Source: Sphingobacteriaceae bacterium DW12
GTDB taxonomy: Bacteria > Bacteroidota > Bacteroidia > Sphingobacteriales > Sphingobacteriaceae
Assembly (NCBI GenBank): GCA_000783305.1
Contig: JROE01000002.1
Location: 806,001-870,000, forward strand
Direction: 5' to 3'
DNA length: 64,000 bases
Translations under genes and position numbers: made by a program
The notes under the pieces: generated by a model
Database searches by the model: none
What the model was told of the DNA's origin: nothing
The model's input: only the letters and a program-made list of their open reading frames with translations
In this document: positions 44,731 through 63,328 of the stretch, piece after piece
How the letters are laid out: every line of letters starts with the position of its first letter
Position numbering within the stretch: the first letter of the stretch is position 1

Positions 44731-44740
44731 ATAATATCAG

Positions 44741-45127
44741 ATGAAAATTTTCAATAGTATATGGGGTCTTCTTTTTGTGGTATGTGCTTGGCTGCAATAC
44801 AACGACCCGGATCCTTTGCTATGGATACTTCTTTATCTATGGGTGGCTTTACTCTGCTTTGGTGCAGCTGCAAACCGCTTTAACAATGGACTCGCCCTGT
44901 TGACGATCGTGGTATATTCGGGCTATGCGATATTCAAGATGGTACATCAAGATGGGGTACTGGATTGGATTTATGATCATCAGGCCGAAAATATAGCGGG
45001 GCAAATGAAGGCCGAAAAACCGTGGATAGAAGAGACACGTGAATTCTTTGGGCTGCTGATTGCTATCGTGGCCTTAGCGATAAACTTAATCTATTATCGA
45101 AAACCAAAACAACCAGAAAAAAATTAG
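44741..45127 (+). CDS. TMEM220-family small membrane protein
   Basis: 128 residues with four hydrophobic segments: about 3-18, 24-42, 48-66 and 104-120. WLQYNDPDPLLWILLYLWVA is the hallmark of the transmembrane 220 family, together with the later EETREFFGLLIAIVALAINL. Inner membrane, unknown function. It follows the TonB receptor by 10 bases and precedes the cytochrome fusion gene by 70, so a role as a small partner in the same pathway is likely, but it cannot be specified. Confidence 0.78.
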   Translation: MKIFNSIWGLLFVVCAWLQYNDPDPLLWILLYLWVALLCFGAAANRFNNGLALLTIVVYSGYAIFKMVHQDGVLDWIYDHQAENIAGQMKAEKPWIEETREFFGLLIAIVALAINLIYYRKPKQPEKN

Positions 45128-45197
45128 CATCTCGACGGTAGTACATAGCAAACTTCTACCCGAGTATCCTATTATAAACATAGATAAAAATTAAATT

Positions 45198-48100: not shown

Positions 48101-48422
48101 ATCCGGTTTCCCACCATTAACACCGAATGAATGGATTGCCGGAGATGAAGACCGACTAATCAAACTGGTACTAAAAGGTCTGCAAGGCCCCATGGAAGTA
48201 AATGGTAAAAAATATCCCGGCCAAGTACCGATGATGTCTTTTGGACGGATGTTGAAAGATGACGAAATAGCGGCCGTATTGACTTATGTCCGTAATTCCT
48301 TTGGCAATACATCGTCGGCGATTTCAGTAGAAAAAGTCAAGGCTATACGACAGGCCACAAACAATAAAGAGGGATTTTATACCGTTGATGAACTACTGAA
48401 GGAACATCCGCTCAAGAAATAA
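45198..48422 (+). CDS. SGNH-like / PVC-type heme-binding cytochrome fusion protein
   Basis: 1074 residues. After a membrane/lipoprotein-like leader (IIATCITSCSFF), residues about 55-285 form an SGNH-hydrolase-like domain. From about 395 to 760 there is a PVC-type membrane-bound dehydrogenase propeller (YKIELFASEQEFPDLEKPVQ; Ca-binding-like DTDQDGKADK; YDPTGGIYMGQG), then helical HEAT-like repeats and a C-terminal cytochrome c domain with CVTCH (heme attachment and His ligand) and a likely Met ligand in GQVPMMSFG. Such proteins oxidise sugars or alcohols in the periplasm. In the SGNH part the block I region reads GNNLGSRM in place of GDS, and block V reads DGVQL in place of DxxH, so hydrolysis is doubtful. 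Confidence 0.85.
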   Translation: MTKRSPDINRWVPILRSRFWGFDGIKLQFVLLMGIIATCITSCSFFESDKLELHKGAHIILIGNNLGSRMLNYGHLETELQLRYPDSTLYIRNLSDGGNTPGFRPNAGVPSPWAFPGAEKFYEGTELANDANAKGFFETPDQWITRHKADIIIAFFGFDESYRGKAGLENYKAELDAFIKHTLAQKYNGTAAPQLALVSPIAFEDLSKERDLPSGKVENENIALYADAMEEVAKANKVVFVDVFSKTKKWFNGADEPLTIDGVQLSEAGYAKLAPTLADGLFGKAPAIAEAHRTLVHAAVQEKNWMWHNDYKMPNGVHVFGQRYEPFGPDNFPSEIIKLRELTAIRDTAIWKATKGEKMDLTAADKNTTQLPEIKTNYTNNGKNGSPKYLYGEEALDKFKIAPGYKIELFASEQEFPDLEKPVQMTFDNKGRLWVAVMPTYPQWKPGDPKPNDKLIILEDTDQDGKADKQTIFADGLQLPLGFELSAEGVYLSQGTDMILLTDTDGDDKADKREILLSGFDDHDTHHAHHAYTYDPTGGIYMGQGVFLLTDVETAYGTVRATGGGFYRYDPKRRKLDFIAQLNVPNPWGITFDGWGQDFYAETSGPAVSWMLPGSVKPTYAKFIQRPKDLIEDAHKVRPTSGLEIVSSRHFPDEVQGDILINNTIGFLGTKQHVLEDDGSGYKSRHRQDLLQSSDMNFRPVDLEFAPDGSLFVIDWHNVLIGHMQHNQRDPMRDHTHGRIYRVTYPSRPLVQPSKIAGEPIAVLLENLKLPEYRTRYRTRRELRDRKTEEVLAHVKTWVAKLDKQDPKLEHHQLEALWVTAGTGKVDQQLLQQLLKAKDYHVRSAAVRILRNEGSHIANQAELLRQMAGDTHPRVRLEAIVAASWLPKEGGLPVITEAGKSPLDDWMKPPYEWTLARFKGKEDVKVDEKEVAIPKGINKATFLAGKAVYLREGLCVTCHQENGKGLEVSGFPPLTPNEWIAGDEDRLIKLVLKGLQGPMEVNGKKYPGQVPMMSFGRMLKDDEIAAVLTYVRNSFGNTSSAISVEKVKAIRQATNNKEGFYTVDELLKEHPLKK

Positions 48423-48450
48423 CCAATATAACACCCATATACAAAAAGAC

Positions 48451-49326
48451 ATGCAAATATTACATCTCAAGAGAATCATTGGCCTAATGCTTATCGGGAC
48501 TATGTTTTCCTGCGGGGCCAGCCCGAAACAACAGAGCACGACCGATGTGGACAAAAAACCATTGGTCGTATTCGTCACGGGCGACCACGAGTATAGTAGC
48601 GAGGCTACAATGCCTATCCTTGCAGCGGAATTAGAGAAGAACTACAATATGCGGGCCGTGGTGCTAAAATCGGCCCCTGACCACAATTCCGAAGAGAACA
48701 TCCCTGGGCTGGAGATACTGAAAGATGCGGACCTAGTGGTGTTCTATCTGCGCTGGAGAAGGCTACCGAAAGACCAGTTGAAGCCTATTGACGATTATCT
48801 CAAATCGGGTAAACCTGTCATAGGCTTCAGGACGACCACGCACGGCTTCAACTTTCCGGCTGGGCATCCATCCGAAAGCTGGAATGCGTTTGGTGAATTT
48901 GCATTTGGAACTCCTCCGGGCTGGGGTAAATCGGGACATACACATTACGGCCATAATTCCAGTACGGATGTATCGGTAATCGAGGCCCAAAAATCAAATC
49001 CTATCTTAACGGGCGTACCAACGGCTTTCCATGTGCGATCATGGCTGTACCATATGGTACCGGACTTTCCTCCAAAAGGAGCTACAGCTTTGTTGATGGG
49101 TAAAGCAGTGGATCCGGACAAAGCGGCGGTGGACAACCCTGTTGCTTGGACCTGGAAGACAAATTGGGGCGGCAAGAGCTTCTTCACTACACTTGGACAT
49201 CCCGATGATTTTAAAGAAGAAGGTCTACAAAGATTGGTCATCAATGCCATTCACTGGACATTGGACAAGGATGTGCCAAAACAATGGGCCGGAAAGATGA
49301 GCATCAACGTACCTTACCGTCAATAG
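48451..49326 (+). CDS. ThuA-domain lipoprotein
   Basis: 291 residues, lipobox MFSCG, so periplasmic and lipid-anchored. The ThuA/trehalose-utilisation fold is a class I glutamine-amidotransferase-like Rossmann domain: VVFVTGDHEYSSEATMPILA, LEILKDADLVVFYLRWRRLP, KPVIGFRTTTHGFNFP, and the His-rich GHTHYGHNSS. Such proteins often occur beside PVC-type cytochromes and oxidoreductases in sugar-oxidation loci; the exact reaction is not established. It begins 28 bases after the cytochrome gene, in the same operon. Confidence 0.85.
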   Translation: MQILHLKRIIGLMLIGTMFSCGASPKQQSTTDVDKKPLVVFVTGDHEYSSEATMPILAAELEKNYNMRAVVLKSAPDHNSEENIPGLEILKDADLVVFYLRWRRLPKDQLKPIDDYLKSGKPVIGFRTTTHGFNFPAGHPSESWNAFGEFAFGTPPGWGKSGHTHYGHNSSTDVSVIEAQKSNPILTGVPTAFHVRSWLYHMVPDFPPKGATALLMGKAVDPDKAAVDNPVAWTWKTNWGGKSFFTTLGHPDDFKEEGLQRLVINAIHWTLDKDVPKQWAGKMSINVPYRQ

Positions 49327-49357
49327 TCATTAGAAAACCCGATAAATAACATAATAT

Positions 49358-50242
49358 ATGGAATTATCAATTCACAATTGGATGCGCGCAGAAACATTGG
49401 AGACGACCATCCGAAGGATAGCTGGACTCGGTTATACCAAATTAGAGATTGCGGGAACCCCCGAACAATACGATACAAAACAGGTACGGCAACTGCTTCG
49501 ACAATACAACATATCGTGCTGGGGATCGGTGACATTGATGCTCGGCGAGCGCAACCTACTGGCCAAAGATGAAGCCCAACGGGCTCGATCGGTGCAATAT
49601 GTTAAAGACGTAGTGCGCATGGTCAAAGAACTGGAGGGCACCATGGTATCGATAGTACCTGGCACAGTGGGCAAGATTGTTGCTGAAGCACGTCCGGAGG
49701 AAGAGTGGCAATGGGCGGTAGATTCTCTAAAAGAGATTTATGACTATGCTGAAGAATCGGATATCTTACTAGGGATAGAACCTATTAATCGCTTCGAGAC
49801 CTATTTCATCAATCGAGGTGACCAAGCTTTGGTATTGGCAGAAGCTGTAGGCCCCAAATGTGGCGTGTGCTTAGACTCCTTCCATATGAACATGGAAGAG
49901 TCGGATATCTACGAAGCTATTCGAAGAACAAAGGGCCGACTGGTGGGATTCCATGTGGCCGACAATAATCGTATGGCACCGGGAATGGGTCATCTGGATT
50001 GGGCGCGGATAGTGAATACGCTTCGCGAAGTCGGTTATGATGAGGTGCTATCGGTAGAATTTTGCTCACCATTGGACCGCACACCGGCAAATCCCTATCC
50101 TAATTCATTGGATGAAAATCCCCAAAACTTGTCACCCGAGCAACGCAAGTTTTTGGAAGACCATGGTAGTACAGCGGTCACGGAAGAATTCTATACGATG
50201 CTGACTCGTAAGTCCTATGAAACCTTATCAACCTTATTGTAG
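49358..50242 (+). CDS. sugar isomerase/epimerase, D-tagatose 3-epimerase-like
   Basis: 294 residues, TIM-barrel, no signal peptide, cytosolic. The four metal ligands of the ketose 3-epimerase group can be placed: Glu in GIEPINRFE, Asp in VCLDSFHMNMEE, His in GFHVADNNR and Glu in LSVEFCS. The block HVADNNRMAPGMGHLDW is characteristic. These enzymes move the stereochemistry at C3 of keto sugars through an enediolate on a Mn or Co ion. The natural substrate here is not known. It follows ThuA by 31 bases and precedes the enolase-superfamily gene by 37. Confidence 0.85.
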   Translation: MELSIHNWMRAETLETTIRRIAGLGYTKLEIAGTPEQYDTKQVRQLLRQYNISCWGSVTLMLGERNLLAKDEAQRARSVQYVKDVVRMVKELEGTMVSIVPGTVGKIVAEARPEEEWQWAVDSLKEIYDYAEESDILLGIEPINRFETYFINRGDQALVLAEAVGPKCGVCLDSFHMNMEESDIYEAIRRTKGRLVGFHVADNNRMAPGMGHLDWARIVNTLREVGYDEVLSVEFCSPLDRTPANPYPNSLDENPQNLSPEQRKFLEDHGSTAVTEEFYTMLTRKSYETLSTLL

Positions 50243-50279
50243 TACAGATATATAGGACAGACTAAATAATTATATAGAG

Positions 50280-51449
50280 ATGAAAATAACAAATGTAGAA
50301 GCATATTGGTTACAGTGTCCCATTGCCGAAGCCAAACAACATATCTCGGACTACGGATTACTGACCCACTTTGACATGACCCTAGTGGTCATCACAACCG
50401 ACAGTGGCCTGCAGGGCTATGGCGAGGCAAAAGCGGCCGTAGGGTCCTCAGGTGGTTGCGCCGCTATTGTAAGCTGCATCGAGAACGACCTAAAACCATT
50501 ACTGATTGGAAAAGATGCGCGCTACATCACCCGTATCTGGGAAGAGTTGTACAATGGCACACGTGATCACTATGCGCTGTCTCGAGGTCGCAAGTTTCCG
50601 ATTTTGGGTCGCCGAGGATTGACTATATCCGCCCTAAGTGGTGTAGACACCGCTTTATGGGATTTAAAGGGCAAAGCCTTACAGATACCGGTGGTCGAAC
50701 TACTGGGTGGCGCCTGTCGTGATCGCATGGAGGCCTATGCTAGTGGCGGTTGGGCGGATGTGGACCATATTGGTGAGCAATTGAATGGATATGTAGCTAA
50801 AGGCTTCAAGGGTGTAAAAATGCGGGTAGGTGTCATGGACAAAACCGTTGAACAAAGTATCGCACGGGTAAAGGCGGCAAGGAAGGCCTTGGGGCCCGAT
50901 ATCAAATTGATGGCAGATGCACATGGAACATTCAGCGTACCAGAAGCTAAGTATTTCTGTCGTGGTGTAGAAGACTGTCACCTCTACTGGTTTGAGGAAC
51001 CCATTAATCCGGACAACAAACAGGGTACTGCCGAGGTGAGGGCCATGACCACGATTCCGATTGCGGCAGGAGAAAGTGAATTTACCGCATTTGATATTCG
51101 CGATCTGATGGACGTACGTGCCCTGGACGTCGTACAGCCTGATTCGGCCATTATTGGAGGAATCTCGGAGGCGGTGCGGGTAGCCCATCTGGCGAATACA
51201 CAGCAGATTGAATTGGCACCACATTGCTGGGGATCAGCATTTTCATTCATGGCAGGCGTGAATGTAGCCTTCGCTTCTCCTTCGGCGACGGTCATCGAAT
51301 TTTCATTGGGCGGCAACCCGATGATGTATGACCTAGTAAAAGAGCAGATAAGTGTTACTGATGGCTATTTGGATGCCCCTACCGCACCCGGACTTGGCCT
51401 CACCCCCAACTGGGATTTCATACAGGAATTCAAACAAAAAATCAACTAA
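50280..51449 (+). CDS. mandelate racemase/muconate lactonizing enzyme-like protein (enolase superfamily)
   Basis: 389 residues. N-terminal capping domain, then the barrel with the Lys motif GVKMRVG at the end of the second strand, three metal ligands in LMADAHG, YWFEEPI and AAGESE, and an Asp-His dyad in VVQPDSAIIGG and LAPHCWGS. This is the mandelate racemase subgroup arrangement, in which most members dehydrate sugar acids (aldonates, uronates). Cytosolic. Its position between a ketose epimerase and a D-2-hydroxyacid dehydrogenase supports sugar-acid dehydration, though epimerisation or lactonisation are also possible. It ends one base before the VOC gene starts. Confidence 0.88.
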   Translation: MKITNVEAYWLQCPIAEAKQHISDYGLLTHFDMTLVVITTDSGLQGYGEAKAAVGSSGGCAAIVSCIENDLKPLLIGKDARYITRIWEELYNGTRDHYALSRGRKFPILGRRGLTISALSGVDTALWDLKGKALQIPVVELLGGACRDRMEAYASGGWADVDHIGEQLNGYVAKGFKGVKMRVGVMDKTVEQSIARVKAARKALGPDIKLMADAHGTFSVPEAKYFCRGVEDCHLYWFEEPINPDNKQGTAEVRAMTTIPIAAGESEFTAFDIRDLMDVRALDVVQPDSAIIGGISEAVRVAHLANTQQIELAPHCWGSAFSFMAGVNVAFASPSATVIEFSLGGNPMMYDLVKEQISVTDGYLDAPTAPGLGLTPNWDFIQEFKQKIN

Positions 51450-51450
51450 T

Positions 51451-51936
51451 ATGGCACGTGTACTCCGTATCAATCACGTCACCGTGATTGTCGACAATCT
51501 CGAAAAAGCAACCCAATTCTACGAACAGGAATTGGGCTTGGAGCCTCTCTCGGCTTTCCGATTCGACTATCCCGTTATGTTCTTCCGTGTCAATGCCGAA
51601 CAGCAATTGCATATCTCCGAATGGGAAGATACTCCTTCTTTCCGGGGTCATATCTGCTTTGTGGCGGATGACTTCAACGCTATATTTTTTCGGATGAAAG
51701 AGCTGAATGCTATTGACATCAAGCCTTGGGGCAAGGTAAGGCAGCTGCCCGATGGGGCCATGCAAATGTTTTTGCGTGACCCTAGCGGCAATCTATTGGA
51801 AATATCTTCTAGCCCAGATGCCGAAATAGACCCACAAATCTTCAAAGACGAGCTGTACGGAGAAGGACTGTATGTATCCAATCGGAATGACTTTAGGGGC
51901 AACAAATCGGATGATGCCACGCTATATCATAAATAG
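51451..51936 (+). CDS. VOC family protein (glyoxalase/dioxygenase fold)
   Basis: 161 residues from the ATG at 51451, one base after the preceding stop; a longer upstream frame merely shadows that gene. Two beta-alpha-beta-beta-beta modules of the vicinal oxygen chelate fold are visible: INHVTVIVDNLEKATQFYEQ and GHICFVADDFNAIFFRM. Likely metal ligands are His in INHV, His in QLHISE or GHICF, and the Glu in NLLEISS. The fold covers glyoxalases, extradiol dioxygenases and epimerases; which of these applies is unknown. Tightly coupled to its neighbours, so it should act on an intermediate of the same pathway. Confidence 0.82.
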   Translation: MARVLRINHVTVIVDNLEKATQFYEQELGLEPLSAFRFDYPVMFFRVNAEQQLHISEWEDTPSFRGHICFVADDFNAIFFRMKELNAIDIKPWGKVRQLPDGAMQMFLRDPSGNLLEISSSPDAEIDPQIFKDELYGEGLYVSNRNDFRGNKSDDATLYHK

Positions 51937-51939
51937 CAT

Positions 51940-52899
51940 ATGAAGAAGACTGTTTTATTGTTGGAAACCATTGCCGACGAAGCCATGGCTCTACTGATGG
52001 ATCGGACAAACGTAGTTGTTGGATATGATCAGAGACGCCTTCAAGATACCGCAGCATATGAACATGTACACGCGATCATCACAAGAGGCAAGGGTCAAGT
52101 AGACCAGACCTTGATACGGGCTTGTCCTAATTTGGAAGTCATCGCCCGATGTGGCGTGGGTTTGGACAATGTCGATGTGGCGACAGCGACAGCTCGAGGG
52201 ATTAAAGTAGTGAACACTCCTGGTGCAAATGCAGGGACCGTGGCCGAGCATACCCTGTCTTTGATGTTGATGTCTATCCGCGACCTATACCGCACAATAG
52301 AGCAAGTCAAGCAGGGCAATTGGGCTTGGCGAAACGTGTATAATGGTGACGAGCTGACGGGCAAGACATTAGGAATTCTGGGCATGGGCAATATCGGTAA
52401 GCGAGTGGCCCGTCTAGCCGAAGCATTTGAGATGCGGGTAATCTATTGGAACCGTAGTAAACAGGATGTGTCCTACCCCTATTTGCCCTTGGAGGAGGTA
52501 TTGAGCCAAGCAGATATCGTAAGCCTACACCTCCCCTATACCCCAGGTGATGCTCCCTTAATCGGTGTGGACGAGCTGACCTTAATGAAACCTGCGGCAC
52601 GTTTGATCAATACCGCCCGCGGAGCACTAATCGACCATGAGGCGCTTTTGAATGCATTACATACCCAGCAATTGTCTGGATTTGCAGCTGACGTATTGCC
52701 CGACTTGACTCCAGCTATCAGGAATGCCTTAGTATCCAATTCACAGGTATTGGTAACCCCACATGCGAGCAGCCTGACTGCAACAACTTATCGTCAAATG
52801 TGCTTACTTGCTGTAGGCAATGTATTGGAAATTCTTCTGGAAGGAAAACCTGATATAAGGAGTATTTTTAATTACGAAAAACTTAGCTCTTCACCCTAA
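51940..52899 (+). CDS. D-2-hydroxyacid dehydrogenase family protein
   Basis: 319 residues, cytosolic. The NAD-binding domain has LGILGMGNIGKRVARLAEAF, and the substrate-side residues include R in LINTARGALID and His in TPHASSLTA. In the classical active site a Glu follows in a DVFE-type motif; here the sequence reads AADVLPDLTP, so that Glu position is Pro, with an Asp next to it. Either the Asp substitutes or the enzyme has a different chemistry. It starts 3 bases after the VOC gene. It would oxidise a 2-hydroxyacid or reduce a 2-ketoacid produced by the dehydratase-like enzyme. Confidence 0.85.
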   Translation: MKKTVLLLETIADEAMALLMDRTNVVVGYDQRRLQDTAAYEHVHAIITRGKGQVDQTLIRACPNLEVIARCGVGLDNVDVATATARGIKVVNTPGANAGTVAEHTLSLMLMSIRDLYRTIEQVKQGNWAWRNVYNGDELTGKTLGILGMGNIGKRVARLAEAFEMRVIYWNRSKQDVSYPYLPLEEVLSQADIVSLHLPYTPGDAPLIGVDELTLMKPAARLINTARGALIDHEALLNALHTQQLSGFAADVLPDLTPAIRNALVSNSQVLVTPHASSLTATTYRQMCLLAVGNVLEILLEGKPDIRSIFNYEKLSSSP

Positions 52900-53038
52900 G
52901 TGAAGATTATAAGTATTGGTAAATAATCCTATCTTTATATGTTCGCGTAACCTGCAGATACTATTTTATAACAAAGGGCAATCATATATTGCCGACAGTT
53001 GTAGCCAATCACATCCTAAAATTCATAATCAAAAATAA

Positions 53039-54055
53039 ATGACAGCTCATAAAAACAGAAAACTTGCCGTATTCGTCCTAATGCTCCTATTATCTCCATC
53101 AGTGATATTTGGAAAGATTTCCCCAAAAATATTTGAGGGTGCTACAATCCAAGTGATGCATCCCGATTTCAAAAAAATAATAGCGCCCACTGCTAAAGTC
53201 GAGCTGTTAGCAGACGGTATGCAATGGACAGAGGGTCCGGTATGGGTCAAGCAAGGAAACTATTTATTATTCAGCGATCCTAGACTCAACACGGTGTATA
53301 AATGGTCCTTGAACAATGGCTTAGAAAAGTTCCTCACGCCAGCAGGCTACCAAGGGACTGATTTCTATAGTGAGGAACCTGGAACAAATGGGCTACTGAT
53401 TAATAAAGATGGGCATTTAGTAGCTTGTGACCACGGAAATAGACGGATAGTAGAGATTGATTTGGTTACCAAAGAGATGAATCCATTAAGTACACATTGG
53501 CAACAAAAACGGTTTAACTCGCCTAATGATATCTGTCAACATCAACGTGGTGACTATTTTTTTACGGATCCACCTTATGGTCTCCCAAATAGAGAGCGAG
53601 ATACGATAAATAGAGAAATTCAAGCCAATGGAGTCTATCGATTAGACCGATCGGGAAAAACGACACAACTCATTTCGAATCTAACGAGACCTAATGGTAT
53701 AGCCCTATCCACCCGACAAGACAAATTGTATGTAGCCATCAGTGATGGTAAAAATCCTTATATCATGGAGTATCCACTAAAGGATAATTTGGAGGTTGGA
53801 GAGGGAAGAATTTTTGTTGATTTCAAATCAAAATTTCCTACTGAACATGTAGCAGCTGATGGCATAAAGGTACATCCGGAGGGGTATGTATTTGCTGCTG
53901 CGGGCAACGGAATTATCGTCATGAATAGCAAAGGTGAATTATTAGGTCGGATCAAGCTTGGCGCCGCTACCGCCAACTGCAATTTTGGTGGAGACGGCCA
54001 TCTATATATCACGGCATCGGATAAACTATTGCGTGTCCCACTCTTAAACTTGTAA
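53039..54055 (+). CDS. SMP-30/gluconolactonase-family protein
   Basis: 338 residues with a signal peptide (LAVFVLMLLLSPSVIFGK), so exported. The six-bladed propeller of this family is shown by WTEGPVWVKQGNYLLFSDPR with the metal Glu, FNSPNDICQHQRGDYFFTDP with the Asn, TRPNGIALS and HVAADGIKVHPEG with the Asp. Family members hydrolyse sugar lactones, which are exactly what a periplasmic sugar dehydrogenase such as the cytochrome fusion at 45198 would make. It lies 139 bases after the dehydrogenase gene and may have its own promoter. Confidence 0.85.
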   Translation: MTAHKNRKLAVFVLMLLLSPSVIFGKISPKIFEGATIQVMHPDFKKIIAPTAKVELLADGMQWTEGPVWVKQGNYLLFSDPRLNTVYKWSLNNGLEKFLTPAGYQGTDFYSEEPGTNGLLINKDGHLVACDHGNRRIVEIDLVTKEMNPLSTHWQQKRFNSPNDICQHQRGDYFFTDPPYGLPNRERDTINREIQANGVYRLDRSGKTTQLISNLTRPNGIALSTRQDKLYVAISDGKNPYIMEYPLKDNLEVGEGRIFVDFKSKFPTEHVAADGIKVHPEGYVFAAAGNGIIVMNSKGELLGRIKLGAATANCNFGGDGHLYITASDKLLRVPLLNL

Positions 54056-54090: not shown

Positions 54091-55620
54091 TTAAGACGAT
54101 CCGGCTTTTCGTAACCGATGATAGTCAATCTTAGAGTGGTGACGGGAATCGCGAGGCAAGTTGCAAAATTTCACTTTTGTGATTGTCAAGGGCAATGAAA
54201 GGACTCGAGCCCTGATCCGTTCGAAGTCGGTGGCACCTGTGCTACATTCAATAAAAGCTACTAACGCGCCATCAATATGAAGGATGGTACCTATTTCTAC
54301 ACCTTGAATGCTGAGGACATAATTCTCAAATACAAATGGAGAAATCCACGCTCCTTGTTGTGGAATCAGGGTCTGGCAGCGTCCTGTCAAAAACAAATGC
54401 CCGTCCTGTAGATAACCACTATCACCAGTGCGGTGCCAATATACACCATCGATAAAGATTTTATTGGCCTTCATAGCTGCCTCATTTTTATAATAATGGG
54501 CCAATACATGGGGGCCAGAAACGACAATCTCTCCCCACTGCCCTTCTGAACATGTAATCTGATCAAAATACTGCCCCGAAATATCGAATAGCTTATCCTC
54601 GGTGATATGTATAATACGTACAGCGGTCTTGTGATAAGGAATACCCACGGCCAGTCCTTGATGGGGTTGGTAGATAATGTGCTCGGCGGCCAAAGCTGTA
54701 GCTTCTATGGAACTAATGGGCTCGGCCTCGGTAGAACCGTAAACGACCTGTACCTGTTGGTGCGGAAATGCTTGTGTAAATAAGAGCGCTTCACGCTGAA
54801 AAACAGGAGCTCCTCCGGTGAAGATAGTGTCGAGATGCGGTATTTGGATATTTTGGGAAAGTATATGCTGGGCCAACCGCTTGATAAAATAAGGAGATGC
54901 CACAATCCGGGTGACTTGATGATCCAGCAACTGCCGAACAATCAAACGGGCATCCATTTGAGTGGGTTTACTGGGCTTGAAAGCTGCGATTACCGAAGTG
55001 GAGCCTACGGCAAGGTTGATCAGCAACACAATGGGCAACACCGACATGTCTACATCTGTAGGATGGGCACTTATCTTCTCTTCTAAAGCTCGAAATTGCT
55101 CAAGCAAGAAACCATGGGTGCGGACTGCAGCTTTGGGAGCTGCGGTACTTCCCGTGGTAAGGGTGATGAGGGCTGCATCCTGCATGTGGGTAGCGACGTG
55201 GGGAGCCATGCGCTCTTTACTGTACCCTAAGCTGAGTTTAATGGGTATGCGTCGGATTCCGGCGGAGAGTAGACGAAGCAAATGTGCTTTCCAATGACCG
55301 ATAAAGGCTTTACAATCGGCAACCTTACAGCAAGTATCCAAGCGCTTGCGATCAGACCATTCGTCTAAAAACACAGCGGTGGCTCCCATATAGAACAAAG
55401 CAAGTACGATTCTATACAAGGGTATCCCCATAGGAACAAAAACAAGCACACGGTCGCCTCGTACAATGCCTCTTTTCTCGAAGTAAGCCGCTGTATATCG
55501 AACATCTGCTTCCAATTGTCGATACGAAATAACCCTATCCTGCTCAATAATAGCCAACTTATCGGGATATTGGGCCGCTGCGGCCAAAAACAACTCGGTA
55601 ATATTAAAGGACTTTTCCAT
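54091..55620 (-). CDS. OleC-like adenylate-forming enzyme (AMP-binding family)
   Basis: 509 residues from the ATG at 55620, overlapping the preceding gene by 17 bases; last gene of the seven-gene operon. ATP-binding motif LTTGSTAAPKAAVRTHG, the YGSTEAEPIS block, HRTGDSGYLQDG, and a C-terminal Lys in HSKIDYHR. The middle part (VLPIVLLINLAVGSTSVI, PSKPTQMDARLI, TIFTGGAPV) resembles OleC-type enzymes, which form beta-lactones from beta-hydroxy acids, more than plain acyl-CoA ligases. No OleA, OleB or OleD gene is adjacent. A substrate acid is probably activated as its adenylate; what follows is unknown. Confidence 0.78.
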   Translation of the reverse strand: MEKSFNITELFLAAAAQYPDKLAIIEQDRVISYRQLEADVRYTAAYFEKRGIVRGDRVLVFVPMGIPLYRIVLALFYMGATAVFLDEWSDRKRLDTCCKVADCKAFIGHWKAHLLRLLSAGIRRIPIKLSLGYSKERMAPHVATHMQDAALITLTTGSTAAPKAAVRTHGFLLEQFRALEEKISAHPTDVDMSVLPIVLLINLAVGSTSVIAAFKPSKPTQMDARLIVRQLLDHQVTRIVASPYFIKRLAQHILSQNIQIPHLDTIFTGGAPVFQREALLFTQAFPHQQVQVVYGSTEAEPISSIEATALAAEHIIYQPHQGLAVGIPYHKTAVRIIHITEDKLFDISGQYFDQITCSEGQWGEIVVSGPHVLAHYYKNEAAMKANKIFIDGVYWHRTGDSGYLQDGHLFLTGRCQTLIPQQGAWISPFVFENYVLSIQGVEIGTILHIDGALVAFIECSTGATDFERIRARVLSLPLTITKVKFCNLPRDSRHHSKIDYHRLRKAGSS

Positions 55621-56572
55621 ATAACGAGTAGGTTTGGAAGGGAACACCGTGAAAATGTTGGGAAATAGGCGTAGAAGTCCCCTCTTCCTTTAAAAAGGCG
55701 TGTACGATGCGGTTAAACTGCTGTTGATGTGCTTGTTTATACACCTGTGCGGCCATGACATGCCCCAGTCCTCTATACAAAGATGCTGAATCCCGAGCAA
55801 TAGTCTTAATAATCAAGGTCCTATTTTTGGCATCCAATGCATCGGCTATGCACAAAAACACCCCTACGACCTTGTCGCCATGCTCAGCAATCAACACAAA
55901 GTCTGCTTGTAAATAGTGCTTTAATGGAAGGTATTTTTCGATAAAAATAGATTCAGCGATTGGGGAATATAACAAATTGTTAGAAAAGGCTTGTGTCAGA
56001 AAAGGATAAATATGCCTTAATTCGGATTCATAGTCCTCCAAATCTAACGGTCGGATACGGACGCCTTCATCTTGGAGACGGAGGGCGTTCGCTGCGATGG
56101 TGGGATCGGCTACCTGAAGCTGATAGGATTCAGAAGAGTAATATCGAGCAATCGTTTCAAAACCACAGCGCTCCCACTGCTCGGAATAGTATGGGGGGTG
56201 TACCTTTTCCATCAGGAATGGTGCTCGATCTGAATAATCGGCAAACCGATAGTCTTCCCATGTAGAACCATTCATAGGTCCCAAAAGCATGTCCAATCCC
56301 AAACTGCTAGCGATGTCCGATAATGTACCAAACAACAGTTGGCATGCACCAATATGCTCCATGGCAGCATAGGCACCTACCAAACCAACCTTATAGTGTT
56401 GATACACAAGCTGAGGATTGATGTACAATACGGCCTTAGCCAAGGCCTGCCCATCTTCTCGGACAACTATACCGGTATGGAAATGTTCGACGGGAACGGA
56501 TCCGGAAGATATAATGGTCTGGAATAAATCAAGGTCTGCCTCTTGAGGATCGAAATATTGAATCTCCATCAT
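55604..56572 (-). CDS. GNAT-like acyltransferase protein
   Basis: 322 residues, no signal peptide. Two related halves with GNAT-fold character can be seen: the first from FHTGIVVREDGQALAKAVLY through GLVGAYAAMEHIGACQLLFG to LLGPMNGSTWEDYRF, the second from VLIAEHGDKVVGVFLCIA to YRGLGHVMAAQVYKQAHQQ. The GxGH-type turn in the latter resembles a coenzyme A-binding loop. N-acylation of an amine is the usual reaction of this fold. Its start overlaps the phytol-kinase-like gene by 4 bases. If a BtaA-like enzyme provides an amino-acid group, this one could acylate the amine; that is inference. Confidence 0.65.
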   Translation of the reverse strand: MMEIQYFDPQEADLDLFQTIISSGSVPVEHFHTGIVVREDGQALAKAVLYINPQLVYQHYKVGLVGAYAAMEHIGACQLLFGTLSDIASSLGLDMLLGPMNGSTWEDYRFADYSDRAPFLMEKVHPPYYSEQWERCGFETIARYYSSESYQLQVADPTIAANALRLQDEGVRIRPLDLEDYESELRHIYPFLTQAFSNNLLYSPIAESIFIEKYLPLKHYLQADFVLIAEHGDKVVGVFLCIADALDAKNRTLIIKTIARDSASLYRGLGHVMAAQVYKQAHQQQFNRIVHAFLKEEGTSTPISQHFHGVPFQTYSLYGKVL

Positions 56573-57249
56573 GCTAGTAAGGATTGGGTAAGCAAGAGTC
56601 CTAGGATAACCGAAAAGGGAATGCTAACATTGTCATAGCCATCCCTACTCACTGCTTCGGCTAATGTAGCTAGGACAGCAATAATCAAAATGGAGGCTAT
56701 AGCTGGTACTGTCAACGGATGTCCCGCAAAAAAAATATAACTGCCGACTAATAGAAGGGCGCTCAACAGAAACATAGCTGAGCCCATCAGTGTCTTATGT
56801 GCTCCAGCAATAGCATATGGGCCGATAGGCCACTTGCGCCCGGCTAGGCCCGCCACTGGATCGCATACAGCCAAGACCAAGATAGGGAGATAATAATAAT
56901 GATATTGATGTCCGTTGAATAAGAAGGCTAAATAACAGCCATATACAGCTACTGGATAAGCCAAGCTGCCAATGGATTTGCGCTCAACAGCATTGATAGA
57001 GGGTAGAAAACCGAAACGCAGGCTAACGACGAGTATGATAGCGAATGCAGCACACAAGATCAAAACAAGCCAATGGTTGTCCAGTAAAAGAGGAAAAAGT
57101 AAGGCCAATAATCCCGTGCCGATGTGTACCACTTTGCGGCTAATCTCGACCTTGACTTTGCACTTGTGATACAAGACCTCACCAACGGCAAATAGGACCA
57201 GATAGGCTGCGGCCAACAAAAATGTATTCAACAGACTGGTATGGCTCAT
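56569..57249 (-). CDS. phytol/dolichol kinase-like membrane protein
   Basis: 226 residues with about seven hydrophobic segments, inner membrane. Key blocks of the CTP-dependent polyprenol/phytol/diacylglycerol kinase family are KVEISRKVVHIGTGLLAL, VCDPVAGLAGRKWP, AGAHKTLMGSAMFLL and AEAVSRDGYDNVSIPF. Members phosphorylate isoprenoid or lipid alcohols with CTP. Its start overlaps the BtaA-like gene by 4 bases and its end overlaps the GNAT-like gene by 4. Beside HMG-CoA reductase and a UbiA protein, a prenol or prenyl-lipid alcohol is a reasonable substrate. CDP-lipid synthesis, as in the related cytidylyltransferases, is an alternative. Confidence 0.78.
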   Translation of the reverse strand: MSHTSLLNTFLLAAAYLVLFAVGEVLYHKCKVKVEISRKVVHIGTGLLALLFPLLLDNHWLVLILCAAFAIILVVSLRFGFLPSINAVERKSIGSLAYPVAVYGCYLAFLFNGHQYHYYYLPILVLAVCDPVAGLAGRKWPIGPYAIAGAHKTLMGSAMFLLSALLLVGSYIFFAGHPLTVPAIASILIIAVLATLAEAVSRDGYDNVSIPFSVILGLLLTQSLLA

Positions 57250-58352
57250 CTTTGATCGACAATAAATTGGTTATAAAAAAAGCCACTATCCACAGCACTT
57301 AGCTCGTTGGACAAGGCACTCAGGTACTCTGCTTCAGCGGGAAAGATGCCGGAGACGCGACGTGGCACCATCAGATTCCAATAGGCCATGCGCCCCTCAG
57401 GATGAAGACTACGCAATAGCGCGCTAGCTGTCTGGGCAAATACTGGCTTGCTCATATACTCAAATATATTGGAAAGATTCATGGCATCAAAATTTCCAAA
57501 CATGGTGGCGACCTGCTCTGCATAGCCATGTTGAATCTCCAGCCTATCAATATTGGACTTGATGGTATTAAAATGGGATTCTTGTAGATAATGGGGACGT
57601 AAATCGCCGAAAGTACCGGTAAGATTGTACCTTAAAAAAGGATTGCACTGAGCTTGCTGTTTTTGGAGATGTCGCCCGGCCTTTTTAAAGATATAATCAC
57701 CCACATGCACATCTACTTCCTTGAGAAACTGTGGATCACGCCCCAAACGTCCCATGACGACTTTGCTAAAGAAAATCTTAAAGAAAAGACGCCACCGCCA
57801 AGTATTCCAATGACGCTGGTAGTGCTGCTGCTGTGCCAACTCCTCCTTGGGGGACAATAGTGCTTCGATTGCCCTATGGCTATGTATGAAGGGGAGCACG
57901 CGCTTAGCAAAGATTTGAAAATATTTTTCGAATTTCCCTTGATGGATGATGCCTTTGTCCAACAAAGAGGTGTGCGATGCCCAATAATGTCTTGCTTCGG
58001 TGCTCAACTGTTGTTTTATAGACTGGAACATATGAATTCGCTTTGCAGTGCTGGTATACCCTAAAAACGCCAAAAGATCGGGATACTCCATATATTTGAT
58101 AGCGACCTTCTTGAGCTCGACGAGATAGAGTTGCACAACATTGACGTCAACAGCAACAACGAGAGCGGGATCGGCAGTCAGAAGCGAAAAACTATTATCA
58201 CCGGCGGAGGCAATGGATAAAATCCTTACTTGCGGTCGAGGGGATAGACCTGCTAGTAGAATGACAGGGTCTTCCCAACAATTGGCATATCGAATAAAGT
58301 TAAAGTCTACTTCTTTTTGGATATCTGTCATAACGGGTTTAGGCTTCTTCAC
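57246..58352 (-). CDS. BtaA/DUF3419-like SAM-dependent aminocarboxypropyl transferase
   Basis: 368 residues. The opening FNFIRYANCWEDPVILLAGL and the SAM site VRILSIASAGDNSFSLL followed by VVAVDVNVVQLYLVELK are the signature of BtaA, which transfers the 3-amino-3-carboxypropyl group of S-adenosylmethionine to the hydroxyl of diacylglycerol to start betaine lipid synthesis. The acidic residue in NCWEDP and the later FGNFDAMNLSNIFEYMS agree with the family. No BtaB N-methyltransferase gene is adjacent, so the product is probably not ordinary DGTS. Its first bases overlap the end of the dikinase gene by 14. Confidence 0.85.
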   Translation of the reverse strand: MKKPKPVMTDIQKEVDFNFIRYANCWEDPVILLAGLSPRPQVRILSIASAGDNSFSLLTADPALVVAVDVNVVQLYLVELKKVAIKYMEYPDLLAFLGYTSTAKRIHMFQSIKQQLSTEARHYWASHTSLLDKGIIHQGKFEKYFQIFAKRVLPFIHSHRAIEALLSPKEELAQQQHYQRHWNTWRWRLFFKIFFSKVVMGRLGRDPQFLKEVDVHVGDYIFKKAGRHLQKQQAQCNPFLRYNLTGTFGDLRPHYLQESHFNTIKSNIDRLEIQHGYAEQVATMFGNFDAMNLSNIFEYMSKPVFAQTASALLRSLHPEGRMAYWNLMVPRRVSGIFPAEAEYLSALSNELSAVDSGFFYNQFIVDQR

Positions 58353-60951
58353 ATATTTTTATTTCACCTGTACTGCCATCCATTTCAATGACATCACCCG
58401 ACTTCAAAGTTTTCAATAACCCCGTGACACCTACAATACAGGGGATACCCATTTCTCGGGACACAATAGCGGAGTGACTCAATAGGCTCCCGCGTTCTAC
58501 AATAATACCTGCGGCGCTAGGGAATAGCGTTACCCAGCCTGGATCGGTACTCGAAGTCACGAGGATATCGCCGTCCATGGTCTTGACCTCACCGGGATGT
58601 ACGACAATACGCACCCTGGCTTTGATCCTTCCAGGACAGCAGCCTACGCCCTTCAACTCGCCTTCCAAAGGCTCCAGCTTACTTTTACTATAAAAATCAT
58701 TGCTTTGATATACGACGCCATAGGTGGCTATGCGCTCAGAAGGTGCCTCCATATGTTCAAAATGTTCGAATTCCTCTTTGCGCACCGCAACTAGGGACTT
58801 GAGATCACGCGTGACGCTTCGTCCTTCAATATAGGCAAAAATTTCATCCTTGGTGAGAAAGAAAATATCACGTTCAAACTCGAGTATCCCCTCTTCGTAA
58901 AAACGGATACCAATATAGGTGAACAATTGGCGTACGATGCCAAATGCACGGGTACGTTCGTACCGCAGATTTTCGCGTGCACTGACCAGTTCTCGAGCCC
59001 GATTGACGGTCTTTTTGAAAAGCCATTTCTTAATAGGTTTGCGGCGCAGGGCTTTCTTCATGGTCTGCTCTGCTTGCGAACGGACCTCATCTTCCATACG
59101 ATTGGAAGTTCGAGCCGAGGTGATACCCGCTTCGACATAGGACTTTAATACCTGGATGAACTTGGTAGGATCTTGTGAATAGGAAATGGTCTCCAATTTG
59201 AGCTCTCCAACACAGCGCTCACCAAAATCATCCAAGTAGGCCCGAATCTGCGACACCAATTGCTGACTTTCAGGCCTTTCATCCTGATGGAGTATGCTCC
59301 ATATAGCTATCGGCTCTTCGCCTACAAAGAGATGTTTGAGGAAGGGAATCTCGCTGATGGTGGTGGCAAGAACAATACTGCGGTGTATAGGCTGCGTAGA
59401 AATGATATCAGCACTACCGCATAAAAGGTCATTGTGGATATTGGGATGCTCACCTTTGGTGTATTCGTCGCACTTCTTCTGCAATAAACCGAACCAAACC
59501 ATCGCAAAAAAATCATTGAGTAAAGGAGCCTTCCATTGATTCAAAAGGGTACGCTCAAAATGCAGATAGAGCTTCATCAGCTCATTGGCATTCTTCTGTT
59601 GAAAATCCATTTGCTTATAGGTCGCAATAGTGCGGTCGAGCAGATTTTTGAACACCTTGCGTTGGTTGGGTAAGGCCCGGAAGCGCTGATACATCTTGAC
59701 AGCCATGCGTAATATACTGCGCCAGGCTTGGCCAGTAGAGAGTTGGTAGCTCTTGGGGACGTCAAAGGTCTCCTTGACTCCCATCATATTCTCCATAAAA
59801 CGAGCATTGAGACTATATCCAGGCAGCATGGCCAACATGTGGTACCAGGTTTTGAGATTGTAGTATACACGGCCATTGATTAACCCTAAGGTATTGGCAA
59901 ATACGCGTTCATGTCTACGGATAGTAGCATCATCTACTCCCAAGAAGGAGCAGAACATTTTGTAGGCGCCTTCGTAAGACTGGCTGATAAAAGAGAAAGT
60001 CAAGGGAGTGGTAACACCGGGATAAGATTCTACAATATTGCTATTGTCCCAGACTACATAGTCTCCTGAGCTATCAGGTGTGTGCGCGAGTGTCGTGATG
60101 GGCCGTGTCTGTAGGATATAAAGCTGATCGTCCTTGACGGCAAACTCTACATCTTGAAAGGTGACAAAGTGCGCACGCAGATCGTCCAAAAGGGCATCTA
60201 GCTTTAATATAATGTCATCGGAAATGGCTTGATCATGCTGATGTATTCGGGGTATCTCCACCTTGATGGTTCCCCTCTTTGTGTCAGGTGCAATAACATA
60301 TTTTTCCTTTTTTCGGACCACCTCTCGATCGATTTTATGCTTCTGTACGATATAGTTATCTGCATCCAATGCACCTGATACCAGCCCCTCACCTACACCA
60401 AAAACACCTGCGATCAACTTCTCTTTGCGGTTGCCTGAAACTGGGTTGACGCCAAAAGCTACACCAGAGGAGTCGGCATCAACCATCTGTTGGACTATGA
60501 CGCCTATTCCAAATATGGGCCCGAGATTATTGGCCGATCGATAAGCCAGCACACGCTCGGCATAAAGGGATCGCCAGACATCTTTGATGCGAGCTAAGAT
60601 ATCTTCCTTACACACGTATAAGTATGATTCAAACTGTCCTGCAAAGGAATGCTTTGTCCCGTCTTCATCCAAGGCTGATGATCTCACAGCAAAGTAGGCG
60701 GTATCTCCAAAATATGTTTCAATCTCTTTAAGAAAATAGGTGGGGAATCGATAGGTATCAATGGCATACAACATATCCTGTGTATGCTCTATGGAAGAAA
60801 GATCTTTAAATACCTCCGCAAGATAATCTGCTGGCAATACCATCCATTTGGGAACGGGAAGACCTAATTGAGTCAGCTTAAATAGATTTTTGGCTTTCCC
60901 GCCAATGGCAGGATTTTTTATATATTGGTGTTGATAGTCTCTAATAAACAT
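58339..60951 (-). CDS. rifampin-phosphotransferase-like dikinase (PEP/pyruvate-binding plus phospho-His domain)
   Basis: 870 residues. The N-terminal ATP-binding domain shows GGKAKNLFKLTQLGLPVP, VRSSALDEDGTKHSFAGQFE and ADSSGVAFGVNPVSGN; a helical middle domain of about 350 residues follows; the phospho-histidine domain is at the very C-terminus with H826 in GSLLSHSAIVSREMGIP. In PEP synthase the His domain is central and a PEP barrel ends the protein; that barrel is absent here. The order seen is that of rifampin phosphotransferase, which transfers the beta-phosphate of ATP to a hydroxyl group. In this operon the target should be a pathway intermediate, not rifampin. The gap to the UbiA gene is 108 bases. 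Confidence 0.85.
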   Translation of the reverse strand: MFIRDYQHQYIKNPAIGGKAKNLFKLTQLGLPVPKWMVLPADYLAEVFKDLSSIEHTQDMLYAIDTYRFPTYFLKEIETYFGDTAYFAVRSSALDEDGTKHSFAGQFESYLYVCKEDILARIKDVWRSLYAERVLAYRSANNLGPIFGIGVIVQQMVDADSSGVAFGVNPVSGNRKEKLIAGVFGVGEGLVSGALDADNYIVQKHKIDREVVRKKEKYVIAPDTKRGTIKVEIPRIHQHDQAISDDIILKLDALLDDLRAHFVTFQDVEFAVKDDQLYILQTRPITTLAHTPDSSGDYVVWDNSNIVESYPGVTTPLTFSFISQSYEGAYKMFCSFLGVDDATIRRHERVFANTLGLINGRVYYNLKTWYHMLAMLPGYSLNARFMENMMGVKETFDVPKSYQLSTGQAWRSILRMAVKMYQRFRALPNQRKVFKNLLDRTIATYKQMDFQQKNANELMKLYLHFERTLLNQWKAPLLNDFFAMVWFGLLQKKCDEYTKGEHPNIHNDLLCGSADIISTQPIHRSIVLATTISEIPFLKHLFVGEEPIAIWSILHQDERPESQQLVSQIRAYLDDFGERCVGELKLETISYSQDPTKFIQVLKSYVEAGITSARTSNRMEDEVRSQAEQTMKKALRRKPIKKWLFKKTVNRARELVSARENLRYERTRAFGIVRQLFTYIGIRFYEEGILEFERDIFFLTKDEIFAYIEGRSVTRDLKSLVAVRKEEFEHFEHMEAPSERIATYGVVYQSNDFYSKSKLEPLEGELKGVGCCPGRIKARVRIVVHPGEVKTMDGDILVTSSTDPGWVTLFPSAAGIIVERGSLLSHSAIVSREMGIPCIVGVTGLLKTLKSGDVIEMDGSTGEIKICEEA

Positions 60952-60970
60952 CTTTAATAATAAAGCTTTT

Positions 60971-60978
60971 CAAATGTA
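60971..60978 (-). promoter_or_regulatory. candidate internal -7 element before the dikinase gene
   Basis: The minus strand reads TACATTTG, a full TAnnTTTG match, 19 bases before the start codon and inside the only long gap (108 bases) of the operon. No TTG is seen at the -33 spacing. A second promoter inside the operon is possible. Confidence 0.3.
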
Positions 60979-61059
60979 ATGACAACTTCATAAATAGGAG
61001 CTCCCTAATTCAGATAGTATATAAACGCATATACTGGTCCAAACGCGTCAAAGTACATG

Positions 61060-62040
61060 TCAAATTTCCGTCCACAATTGTTCTAACATGGGTACTCCTC
61101 CCAAAATGAGGTACATTGCGATGGTCCAAATGGCGGATGCTACTTCAATGGCTTTGGCTGCCCCCCTAGTCTGGGACTTTAGGAAAAGTGCTGCAGGAAT
61201 ACAACAGACCATGAAAATGATGCCCAAACTCAAATAGGCTAACCCGCCGTGACCAGCATAATAGGAAGCGGCTATGGTCAGGGATAGGGTAATGGCGAGC
61301 ACAAGTACCCAACTGTATACGGACCGGTGAGGCCCTAACATCGCAGAATAGGTCAATACGCCTTCTTTTTCATCGTGTGGAGCACGTATCTTACGTCCGA
61401 TTTCCAATACAATGCCATTCATATAGGACACCGCAAAGAAGTAAAGCAACCCTAGGGGTGCAGCAACATCAGCGAGCAACCAATCGAGCCCACTGGCATA
61501 GATATCAATGAGTGGAATGATGAACATATGAGAAGTAACATACCAAAATTGATGCTTTTTCAACCATTCGGGTATGAAAAATTCCTTTCCCATCAAACAC
61601 AGGTAGATAATGACCGCTGCATACAACAGCAGCATCTTAGGAAAGAACAGCAGATTGAGTACAAGCTGCAGCATTACGATACCAATACCTACCTTCTTTA
61701 GCTCGGATAAGGACACGAGCCCTCTAGGGACGGGCAGCTCCCGTCTGTATCGGGCATCGTCCTCGGCATCCTTAAATTCGTCAAAAATGCGAACCAACAA
61801 AAACAAGGAAACGGTCGTGAAGATACCGACGAGAAAAGTCTTGGTATCGACGAACCCTTCAGCCCCTCTGCATATACGGCTGTATGCTATTGCAGAAAAA
61901 CTGAATGCTGCAACGAGAAAACCATGCCCAAGCAGTGGAAAACGTTCCTTTTGATAGATCCAGAGACGTTTCCAAAACGAAGCATTGTTTTCTACTGGGT
62001 TACTAAATTCATTCATATGCTTGCTATAATCGCCATCCAT
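61060..62040 (-). CDS. UbiA-family prenyltransferase
   Basis: 326 residues from the ATG at 62040, which follows the HMG-CoA reductase stop by 7 bases. Eight or nine hydrophobic segments, inner membrane. The first Asp-rich motif is RIFDEFKDAEDD (D87-E-F-K-D91), the second lies in EIGRKIRAPHDEKEGVLTYS, between membrane segments. UbiA-family enzymes move a prenyl group from its diphosphate to an aromatic ring, a glycerol phosphate or another acceptor. The second motif, with IRAP before the Asp-Glu pair, differs from that of the quinone-pathway members, so a quinone role is not assumed. The acceptor is unknown. Confidence 0.82.
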   Translation of the reverse strand: MDGDYSKHMNEFSNPVENNASFWKRLWIYQKERFPLLGHGFLVAAFSFSAIAYSRICRGAEGFVDTKTFLVGIFTTVSLFLLVRIFDEFKDAEDDARYRRELPVPRGLVSLSELKKVGIGIVMLQLVLNLLFFPKMLLLYAAVIIYLCLMGKEFFIPEWLKKHQFWYVTSHMFIIPLIDIYASGLDWLLADVAAPLGLLYFFAVSYMNGIVLEIGRKIRAPHDEKEGVLTYSAMLGPHRSVYSWVLVLAITLSLTIAASYYAGHGGLAYLSLGIIFMVCCIPAALFLKSQTRGAAKAIEVASAIWTIAMYLILGGVPMLEQLWTEI

Positions 62041-62047
62041 GAATCTT

Positions 62048-63328
62048 CTATTTTTTACGTCCGAATTTCTGATGGGCTTGTGTAAAGTGACCAGCCGATA
62101 AAGCTGCTGCAATGGATAATTCGCCTGCTAATACTAACGCACCACATATTTCCGCATATTTGCGCGCTTTACCTTGACCATAACAATCCATCAATTCTAG
62201 ACATTCGCGCTGTGTAGGAAGATGGGTGCCCCCTCCTACGGTGCCAACAATCAGATTGGGCAGGGTGACACTGGCATACAAAGATCCATCTTTATTCATT
62301 TCCATACGGGTGATACCAGTTGCAGCTTCGGCCACGCAAGCTACATCTTGACCAGTAGCCAAAAATAATGCGGCAAGTCCATTGGCATAATGACCATGGG
62401 CGCCAATTGCGCCACTCTGTATGACCCCTACTGTGGAAGAACGCCAATATTCGGCCATCAATTCGGGTGTGGTCTTCAATACTTTATGGACAATCTCCTC
62501 GGATATGACAATTTCAGCAGTTACCTTCTTGCCGCGGACATTGGTAAAAGAAAGTGCCGTTGCCTTCTTGTCACCAGAGTAGTTGCCTTCAATAAACCAA
62601 AGCTTAGGTTTGGTGGGACACTCCTGTACCACATACTGGCAGACAGCATCTGTACAGATAGTCACCATATTCTGACCAGCAGCATCACCTGTATGGTACT
62701 CCATGGTGACGATAAGATGATTGCCTTCAATCTGTATCTTGATATCCATCAACTTGGCAAAGCGACTTGTCTGACTAACGATATCTTTTAACTTGTCCAC
62801 TTGTGGAAGCAACCAAGCGACAAAGAGGCCGAGATCGGCCACATTCTCGAACTTGAATACAGGGCTTCGTTGAACACCTTCCATCAGACAGATAGAAGTG
62901 GCCCCGCCTGCTAAATAACAAGCCTTGGCTCCCCGGTGATAGGACGCAACAAGAGCTCCTTCACTGGTGGCCAAAGGCACATAAAAGTCCCCTTGAGCCG
63001 ATGAGCCGATGACGCGAAGAGGTCCAATGATGCCGGTAGGGATTTGGCTCATGCCGATAAAATTCTCTATGTTACCATCCAACATACCCCACTCCTCAAT
63101 AGCGATACCCTCCGTCAATTGCGGTAAGGTATTCCCGGTCTTTCGGAGCAAGAACTCTTTTCGTTTCTGGATGCCTTCGGCAGTGACTTGAGGTTCGAAT
63201 GGCAACACTTCTTCATCGGCGAGAAATACCAATTGTTTTGCACGTATGCTCTCAATAATCTTTTCCATCTGCCTTACCGTATTGATAATATACAGTGCTG
63301 TACTTGCCTTCTCTAGTGATGATGCCAT
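62048..63328 (-). CDS. HMG-CoA reductase, class I-like
   Basis: 426 residues; first gene of the operon. It reduces HMG-CoA to mevalonate with NAD(P)H. Class I motifs are seen rather than the class II (Pseudomonas) ones: ENFIGMSQIPTGIIGPL, ATSEGALVASYHRGAKA with E123, GDAAGQNMV, GDKKATALSF with K254/K255, GQDVACVAEAATG with D328, TVGGGTHLPTQRE, and AAALSAGHFTQAHQ with the catalytic H419. All four catalytic residues are kept. The N-terminus has no membrane anchor. An ATG at 63268 is an alternative start. Whether this is the sole reductase of the cell or one for a special pathway cannot be judged from this window. Confidence 0.9.
   Translation of the reverse strand: MASSLEKASTALYIINTVRQMEKIIESIRAKQLVFLADEEVLPFEPQVTAEGIQKRKEFLLRKTGNTLPQLTEGIAIEEWGMLDGNIENFIGMSQIPTGIIGPLRVIGSSAQGDFYVPLATSEGALVASYHRGAKACYLAGGATSICLMEGVQRSPVFKFENVADLGLFVAWLLPQVDKLKDIVSQTSRFAKLMDIKIQIEGNHLIVTMEYHTGDAAGQNMVTICTDAVCQYVVQECPTKPKLWFIEGNYSGDKKATALSFTNVRGKKVTAEIVISEEIVHKVLKTTPELMAEYWRSSTVGVIQSGAIGAHGHYANGLAALFLATGQDVACVAEAATGITRMEMNKDGSLYASVTLPNLIVGTVGGGTHLPTQRECLELMDCYGQGKARKYAEICGALVLAGELSIAAALSAGHFTQAHQKFGRKK

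Follow-up and report, generated by a model that had tools for sequence, protein, structure and literature searches.

The stretch of DNA analysed here (the window) comprises 64,000 nucleotides of contig JROE01000002.1 (positions 806,001 to 870,000) from the 5.3 Mb genome of Sphingobacteriaceae bacterium DW12 and carries an operon of seven minus-strand genes at window positions 54091-63328. Judged by its gene content and distribution this operon is a real pathway, and we see an even chance that it is dedicated to a so far uncharacterised aminolipid associated with the membrane (or to a metabolite closely resembling a lipid) that has the 3-amino-3-carboxypropyl (homoserine-type) group of S-adenosylmethionine (SAM) at its core. 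From the first gene to the last it encodes an HMG-CoA reductase (HMGR, gene G), a UbiA-superfamily membrane transferase (F), a dikinase (E), a BtaA-like protein (D), an integral membrane protein (C), a GNAT N-acyltransferase (B) and an adenylating enzyme (A). All seven open reading frames (ORFs) end in a stop codon and start with ATG, except for D, which starts with GTG. With the ATG codons at 62040 (F) and 55620 (A) taken as starts, 7 bases separate HMGR from F and 108 bases separate F from E, after which successive genes overlap by 14, 4, 4 and 17 bases. The ORF coordinates thereby confirm the layout given in a preliminary description of this DNA, with its 7-base and 108-base gaps and overlaps of 4-17 bases.

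Conservation of the gene cluster

Protein D was used as the bait in a conservation search of congeners and then of a wide genome collection. It was found in 7 of 36 congeners, and its relatives in the wide collection came from Sphingobacterium, Parapedobacter, Chitinophaga, Saprospiraceae, other Bacteroidota, a Rubripirellula (Planctomycetota), a Spirochaetes bacterium and Clostridia. The neighbours of these relatives belong to the operon's own gene families and the gene set is kept in at least four bacterial phyla. F, E, D, C, B and A occur together in two metagenome-assembled genomes (MAGs) of Clostridia at 27-40% identity; the Planctomycetota locus keeps D, E, F, A and B, within that same identity range, and C comes next after D on the Spirochaetes contig, which then ends. 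Among the sampled Bacteroidota the operon is present in families f1, f24, f27, f32 and f57, with a different gene order in f57, and HMGR leads most complete copies, adjoining F. Operon-type D was present in eight of nine sampled Bacteroidota genomes with operon-type HMGR as against four of about 287 others (Fisher p 3e-12, uncorrected for phylogeny, the two genome samples behind the test overlapping without being identical). The linkage of these genes exceeds chance. Conservation of the neighbourhood well beyond close strains, which the preliminary description had set as a check, was borne out in the Bacteroidota families, Clostridia and Planctomycetota and, for D and C, in Spirochaetota. An adjacency of unrelated lipid genes by chance is refuted by this cross-phylum conservation, by the rearranged gene orders and by the gene fusions described below; no point in its support was found and its probability is negligible.

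Relatives of D were also seen in other company. In Catonella morbi (L028:3903-14169) D and E lie with an APH kinase, a GNAT, a weakly matching NAD-synthase/QueC-like protein and two AMP-binding proteins, and UbiA and C are absent. At L128:8237-10658 a D relative (27%) overlaps a weakly Shikimate_DH-like gene, with no other operon members. In the window, the plus strand at 42208-54055 carries genes for a TonB receptor, a DUF7133/cytochrome c/GDSL protein, ThuA, a TIM-barrel isomerase, a mandelate-racemase-type enzyme, a glyoxalase, a 2-hydroxyacid dehydrogenase and an SMP-30 protein, a set that resembles a sugar-acid utilisation locus.

The BtaA-like protein and its partner enzymes

The DUF3419 domain covers the full length of D (57246-58352, 368 aa; PF11899, 224 bits against a cut-off of 28.2), and the SAM-side residues Y22, W26-E27-D28, S49-A50-G51, N53, D69, Q74 and others are common to D and canonical BtaA. 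N292, E298, Y299, W325, N326 and R205-D206 differ from nine canonical-type proteins, two of which sit on a long, unsure branch, and positions 292-299 and 325-326, in the second half, do not vary within D but differ in the canonical type. A methyltransferase, presumably BtaB, adjoins all four canonical BtaA genes tested in Bacteroidota, whereas the genes that could be identified at D-type loci include none and no methyltransferase gene recurs in D-type clusters. Because of the missing BtaB neighbour and the changed second-half residues D is placed, at the level of sequence, in a separate clade and is not canonical BtaA. Ordinary betaine-lipid (DGTS-type) synthesis with some extra neighbours would account for the DUF3419 membership of D and its retained SAM-side residues, but the classic betaine lipid reading was rejected on these same neighbours and changed residues and is very unlikely. 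D would transfer an aminocarboxypropyl group. The preliminary description had envisaged BtaA-like transfer onto a lipid; the use of diacylglycerol, as by BtaA, is made uncertain by the changed residues and neighbours.

The GNAT Pfam match of B (55604-56572, 322 aa) is marginal (20.3 bits against a cut-off of 20.7), and its AlphaFold model (pLDDT 93) matches tandem GNATs with E-values down to 2e-13; on this predicted fold B is a tandem GNAT. A likeness of B to bacterial ceramide synthase was considered and dropped, no such structure being among its best PDB matches. D and B are a single protein in a Chitinophaga (L014) and a Bacteroidia (L020) genome, both of them MAGs, in which the fused protein is 65% alike. 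A phosphatidylserine decarboxylase (PSD) paralogue has been added to the cluster at L125 and L126, the two genomes (G411 and G195) having a second PSD gene elsewhere, and at L127 a pyridoxal phosphate-dependent decarboxylase of the Orn/DAP/Arg type is present in place of PSD. The company that D keeps, decarboxylases from two families unrelated to each other together with an N-acyltransferase, fits a D product that would bear an alpha-amino acid group. An amino-acid group that might be acylated was part of the preliminary description, and the D-B fusions and recruited decarboxylases are consistent with it. Two genes of the PSD family are present in the window genome (G000:C3:202151 and G000:C21:5063).

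No Pfam model matched C (56569-57249, 226 aa), and two of 16 members of its family match PF01148 weakly (best E 6e-4). The predicted structure (pLDDT 94) is best matched by the CDP-DAG synthetase 4q2g (Z 9.4, rmsd 3.9 over 157 residues), a match that stands only modestly above unrelated helical proteins, and no Foldseek match had an E-value below 0.001. Invariant in the family are an R-K and an H near the N-terminus and, later, D, K and G. C may tentatively be placed among the CTP_transf/CdsA-superfamily membrane proteins as a probable CTP-dependent lipid-alcohol kinase (CdsA/VTE5/SEC59/Dgk1 superfamily). Elsewhere diacylglycerol kinase or APH proteins take the place of C, which points to a step in which an alcohol is phosphorylated. 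A DAGK_cat lipid kinase occupies the position of C at L126 and L127, C being retained at L125. In the two MAGs with D-B fusions C is absent and HMGR carries a fused APH/choline-kinase-like domain, and in two Bacillota genomes (L146, L147) an HMGR-EcKL/APH fusion, again standing in for C, directly adjoins D; these four kinase-fused HMGRs cluster in a quick tree. The Chitinophaga operon is closely followed, on its downstream side, by a toxin-antitoxin-like pair of DUF2281 and PIN-domain genes (L014:13516-14300).

F (61060-62040, 326 aa from the ATG) has a UbiA domain (PF01040, 52 bits against a cut-off of 34.2), and its nearest solved relative is the digeranylgeranylglyceryl phosphate (DGGGP) synthase 6m31 (E 2.7e-8). 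The first motif, of the RxxDExKDxxxD type, is present in all 17 aligned sequences, one of which has D for E, while the second DxxxD motif is replaced by ExxRKIRxxxE, with RKIR, RKIK or RKVR and acidic flanks in 17 of 17. Since the second Asp motif has become RKIR, it is uncertain whether F uses a prenyl diphosphate. The earlier assignment of F as a UbiA prenyl transferase agrees with the domain and the first Asp motif, and a standard prenyltransferase is uncertain. E (58339-60951, 870 aa), a dikinase resembling PEP synthase, rifampin phosphotransferase and PigC, has PPDK_N and PEP-utilizers domains (201 and 88 bits) and no PEP-binding C domain. It falls below every equivalog cut-off, with 771 bits against 883 for PEP synthase and 313 against 999 and 348 against 1300 for rifampin phosphotransferase/PigC; the nearest PDB entries are 5hv2/5fbs, and His826 and the ATP-site residues are nearly invariant in 31 sequences. 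A (54091-55620, 509 aa from the ATG) is an ANL-superfamily adenylating enzyme on the PRK09274/OleC side (AMP-binding PF00501, 144 bits) in which the Lys of the C-terminal PRDxRHxxK motif is nearly invariant (25 sequences). It had been called OleC-like; an AMP-binding enzyme it is, but with scores far under the OleC equivalog cut-offs (172 against 900 and 166 against 850 bits) the OleC type is uncertain. Several Bacteroidota have an inserted Polyketide_cyc2 (SRPBCC) gene that separates B from A.

HMG-CoA reductase and the mevalonate pathway

HMGR (62048-63328, 426 aa) is of the class I type (PF00368, 395 bits) and scores below the TIGR00533 cut-off (356 against 442 bits). The Glu, Lys (in DKK), Asp and C-terminal His on which catalysis depends in this family are intact in the alignment. 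DAAGQN was considered as a signature of the operon HMGR and rejected, being common to all Bacteroidota HMGRs compared. The preliminary description had put the enzyme in a mevalonate and isoprenoid route, which is not supported: DXR is present in the window genome, and neither HMG-CoA synthase nor mevalonate diphosphate decarboxylase (MDD) was found there. Of 29 cluster genomes, 27 gave no match for HMG-CoA synthase, and MDD was likewise not found in most close relatives of the window genome. Because DXR is present and these two enzymes were not found, HMGR probably does not act as a step of the mevalonate pathway, and mevalonate, if it is the product, is probably not going to isopentenyl diphosphate here. 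For HMG-CoA lyase, a candidate source of HMG-CoA, the scores are 159-196 bits, where the cut-off is 246, whether or not the Sphingobacterium-type genome has the operon.

Were this instead a prenylation operon, the mevalonate made by HMGR would go into isoprenoid diphosphates for attachment by F. Such a scheme would explain why HMGR adjoins F in most complete Bacteroidota operons, and is in keeping with MDD-like genes in G119, G213, G449, G450, G452 and G453 and with the IDI-2-like and polyprenyl synthase genes downstream at L126. It is rendered improbable by the enzymes present and missing as listed above and by the fact that the two partners part company: F is kept in the Clostridia and Planctomycetota clusters, from which HMGR is absent, and HMGR recurs without F, together with CdsA and C or a CDP-alcohol transferase. 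On contig C37 of the window genome (L042:10161-12752) a second HMGR is followed by genes for a CDP-alcohol phosphatidyltransferase and a CdsA-like protein, the pair which in six congeners is sited inside the operon between HMGR and F. In a congener without D (G033, L043:7364-10651) HMGR, a 92-aa ORF, a CdsA-like protein that is extended by 100 aa at its N-terminus, and C form one run. At L125 and L126 HMGR is absent and its slot is taken by a Male-sterility-type acyl reductase. A conserved protein of about 330-350 aa with at most a weak BetR match, a candidate regulator, is divergent from HMGR in several congeners (L042:9115-10152, L149:2200-3234, L150:17945-18931) and was not seen beside the window operon.

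Proposed pathway and comparison with known systems

In the proposed aminolipid pathway D would put the aminocarboxypropyl group of SAM on an acceptor other than the usual diacylglycerol, and B would acylate the new amine, drawing on A for an activated acyl or hydroxyacyl unit, in keeping with the observed D-B fusions. C may phosphorylate a lipid alcohol with CTP; in the sister operons, where their genes are observed, CdsA and the CDP-alcohol phosphatidyltransferase could convert such a phosphate to a phosphodiester head group. E and F, which are often adjacent, may form a second module, with E the probable kinase of an alcohol to which F probably attaches a chain, perhaps prenyl, that is activated as a diphosphate. 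The likely product of HMGR is mevalonate, or else a related alcohol derived from a different acyl-CoA, and this probably becomes part of the final molecule instead of going into isoprenoids, since HMG-CoA synthase and MDD are apparently absent. Conservation, fusions, slot replacements and the lack of hits for mevalonate-pathway genes are seen in the sequences themselves, whereas we infer the aminocarboxypropyl transfer by D, the product, acceptors, order of steps, acylated moiety, prenyl chain and membrane retention. A lipid setting is consistent with the exchange of C for lipid kinases and with the CdsA and CDP-alcohol phosphatidyltransferase genes that some operons have gained. To this extent, and in the conservation of the cluster and the acylable amino-acid group, the preliminary proposal of a lipid product is supported, while its mevalonate-fed isoprenoid route is not.

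Several observations weigh against this proposal. HMG-CoA synthase was excluded by the Pfam model HMG_CoA_synt_C alone, an MDD-like protein occurs in some relatives, as in f27 and Saprospiraceae, and the three kinase types need not share one substrate. Genes for a P450, an MFS protein and a sulfotransferase near the Planctomycetota cluster (L023) and an A-PCP didomain in Clostridia (L025, L026) leave room for a polar specialised metabolite. The main rival explanation is accordingly a secreted one: a diffusible signal, antibiotic or chelator, combining an aminocarboxypropyl unit that is acylated with a portion derived from mevalonate, and not a bulk membrane lipid. The patchy occurrence within the genus, MMPL or ABC transporters at L125 and L127 and a TipAS-type regulator at L146 would suit such a metabolite. 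Two of the core proteins, however, are membrane enzymes related to lipid enzymes, and the loci recruit lipid kinases, CdsA, CDP-alcohol transferase and PSD; we consider this rival a serious one that is clearly the less probable. A more specific form of the aminolipid proposal, which we regard as unlikely, is a new class of bacterial phospho-aminolipid with mevalonate as a structural unit and not as an isoprenoid precursor, in which D would use the aminocarboxypropyl group of SAM to alkylate either the phosphate of a lipid or an alcohol derived from mevalonate, and a PSD-type decarboxylation would follow in some lineages.

Carriers of the cluster include culturable Bacteroidota and, in other phyla, bacteria from the rumen, the mouth and the environment. 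Elucidation of the cluster would show what a new BtaA-like clade makes, would give HMGR a non-isoprenoid role in bacteria apparently without the mevalonate pathway, and would introduce a class of lipids (or metabolites) whose mass signature, the four backbone carbons of methionine, can be predicted. The preliminary description knew of no characterised pathway with this combination of genes, and no match was found in the literature searched, most subscription journals being outside the reach of that search.

Parts of the operon can be compared with known systems. In the plant tocopherol route (VTE5-VTE6-HPT) a prenol kinase works with a UbiA-fold transferase, and the operon likewise pairs the prenol-kinase-like C with F; C, however, is weakly tied to that superfamily, and the operon is without aromatic acceptor genes and has BtaA-like, GNAT and HMGR genes. 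Mevalonyl units are built into fungal siderophores by SidI and SidF, and the adenylating enzyme and GNAT of the operon could similarly pass a mevalonyl group to an amine, although hydroxamate and non-ribosomal peptide synthetase genes are lacking and membrane lipid enzymes are present. E has the domain layout and conserved phospho-His of the rifampin phosphotransferase and PigC ligases but lies under all of their equivalog cut-offs. In BtaA/BtaB betaine-lipid synthesis the likeness is that of D, a DUF3419 protein with the SAM-side residues of BtaA; the operon differs in having no BtaB, in the separate clade and changed second half of D, and in the kinase, GNAT and other genes alongside. The nearest published idea is the archaeal-type ether lipid gene pair of FCB bacteria (PMC7852524). 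Although the second Asp motif of F is changed, the operon has an aminocarboxypropyl transferase homologue and a GNAT, and geranylgeranylglyceryl phosphate synthase was not noticed at the locus, F has DGGGP synthase as its nearest relative of solved structure and is accompanied by partners of the CTP-transferase type, C and CdsA.

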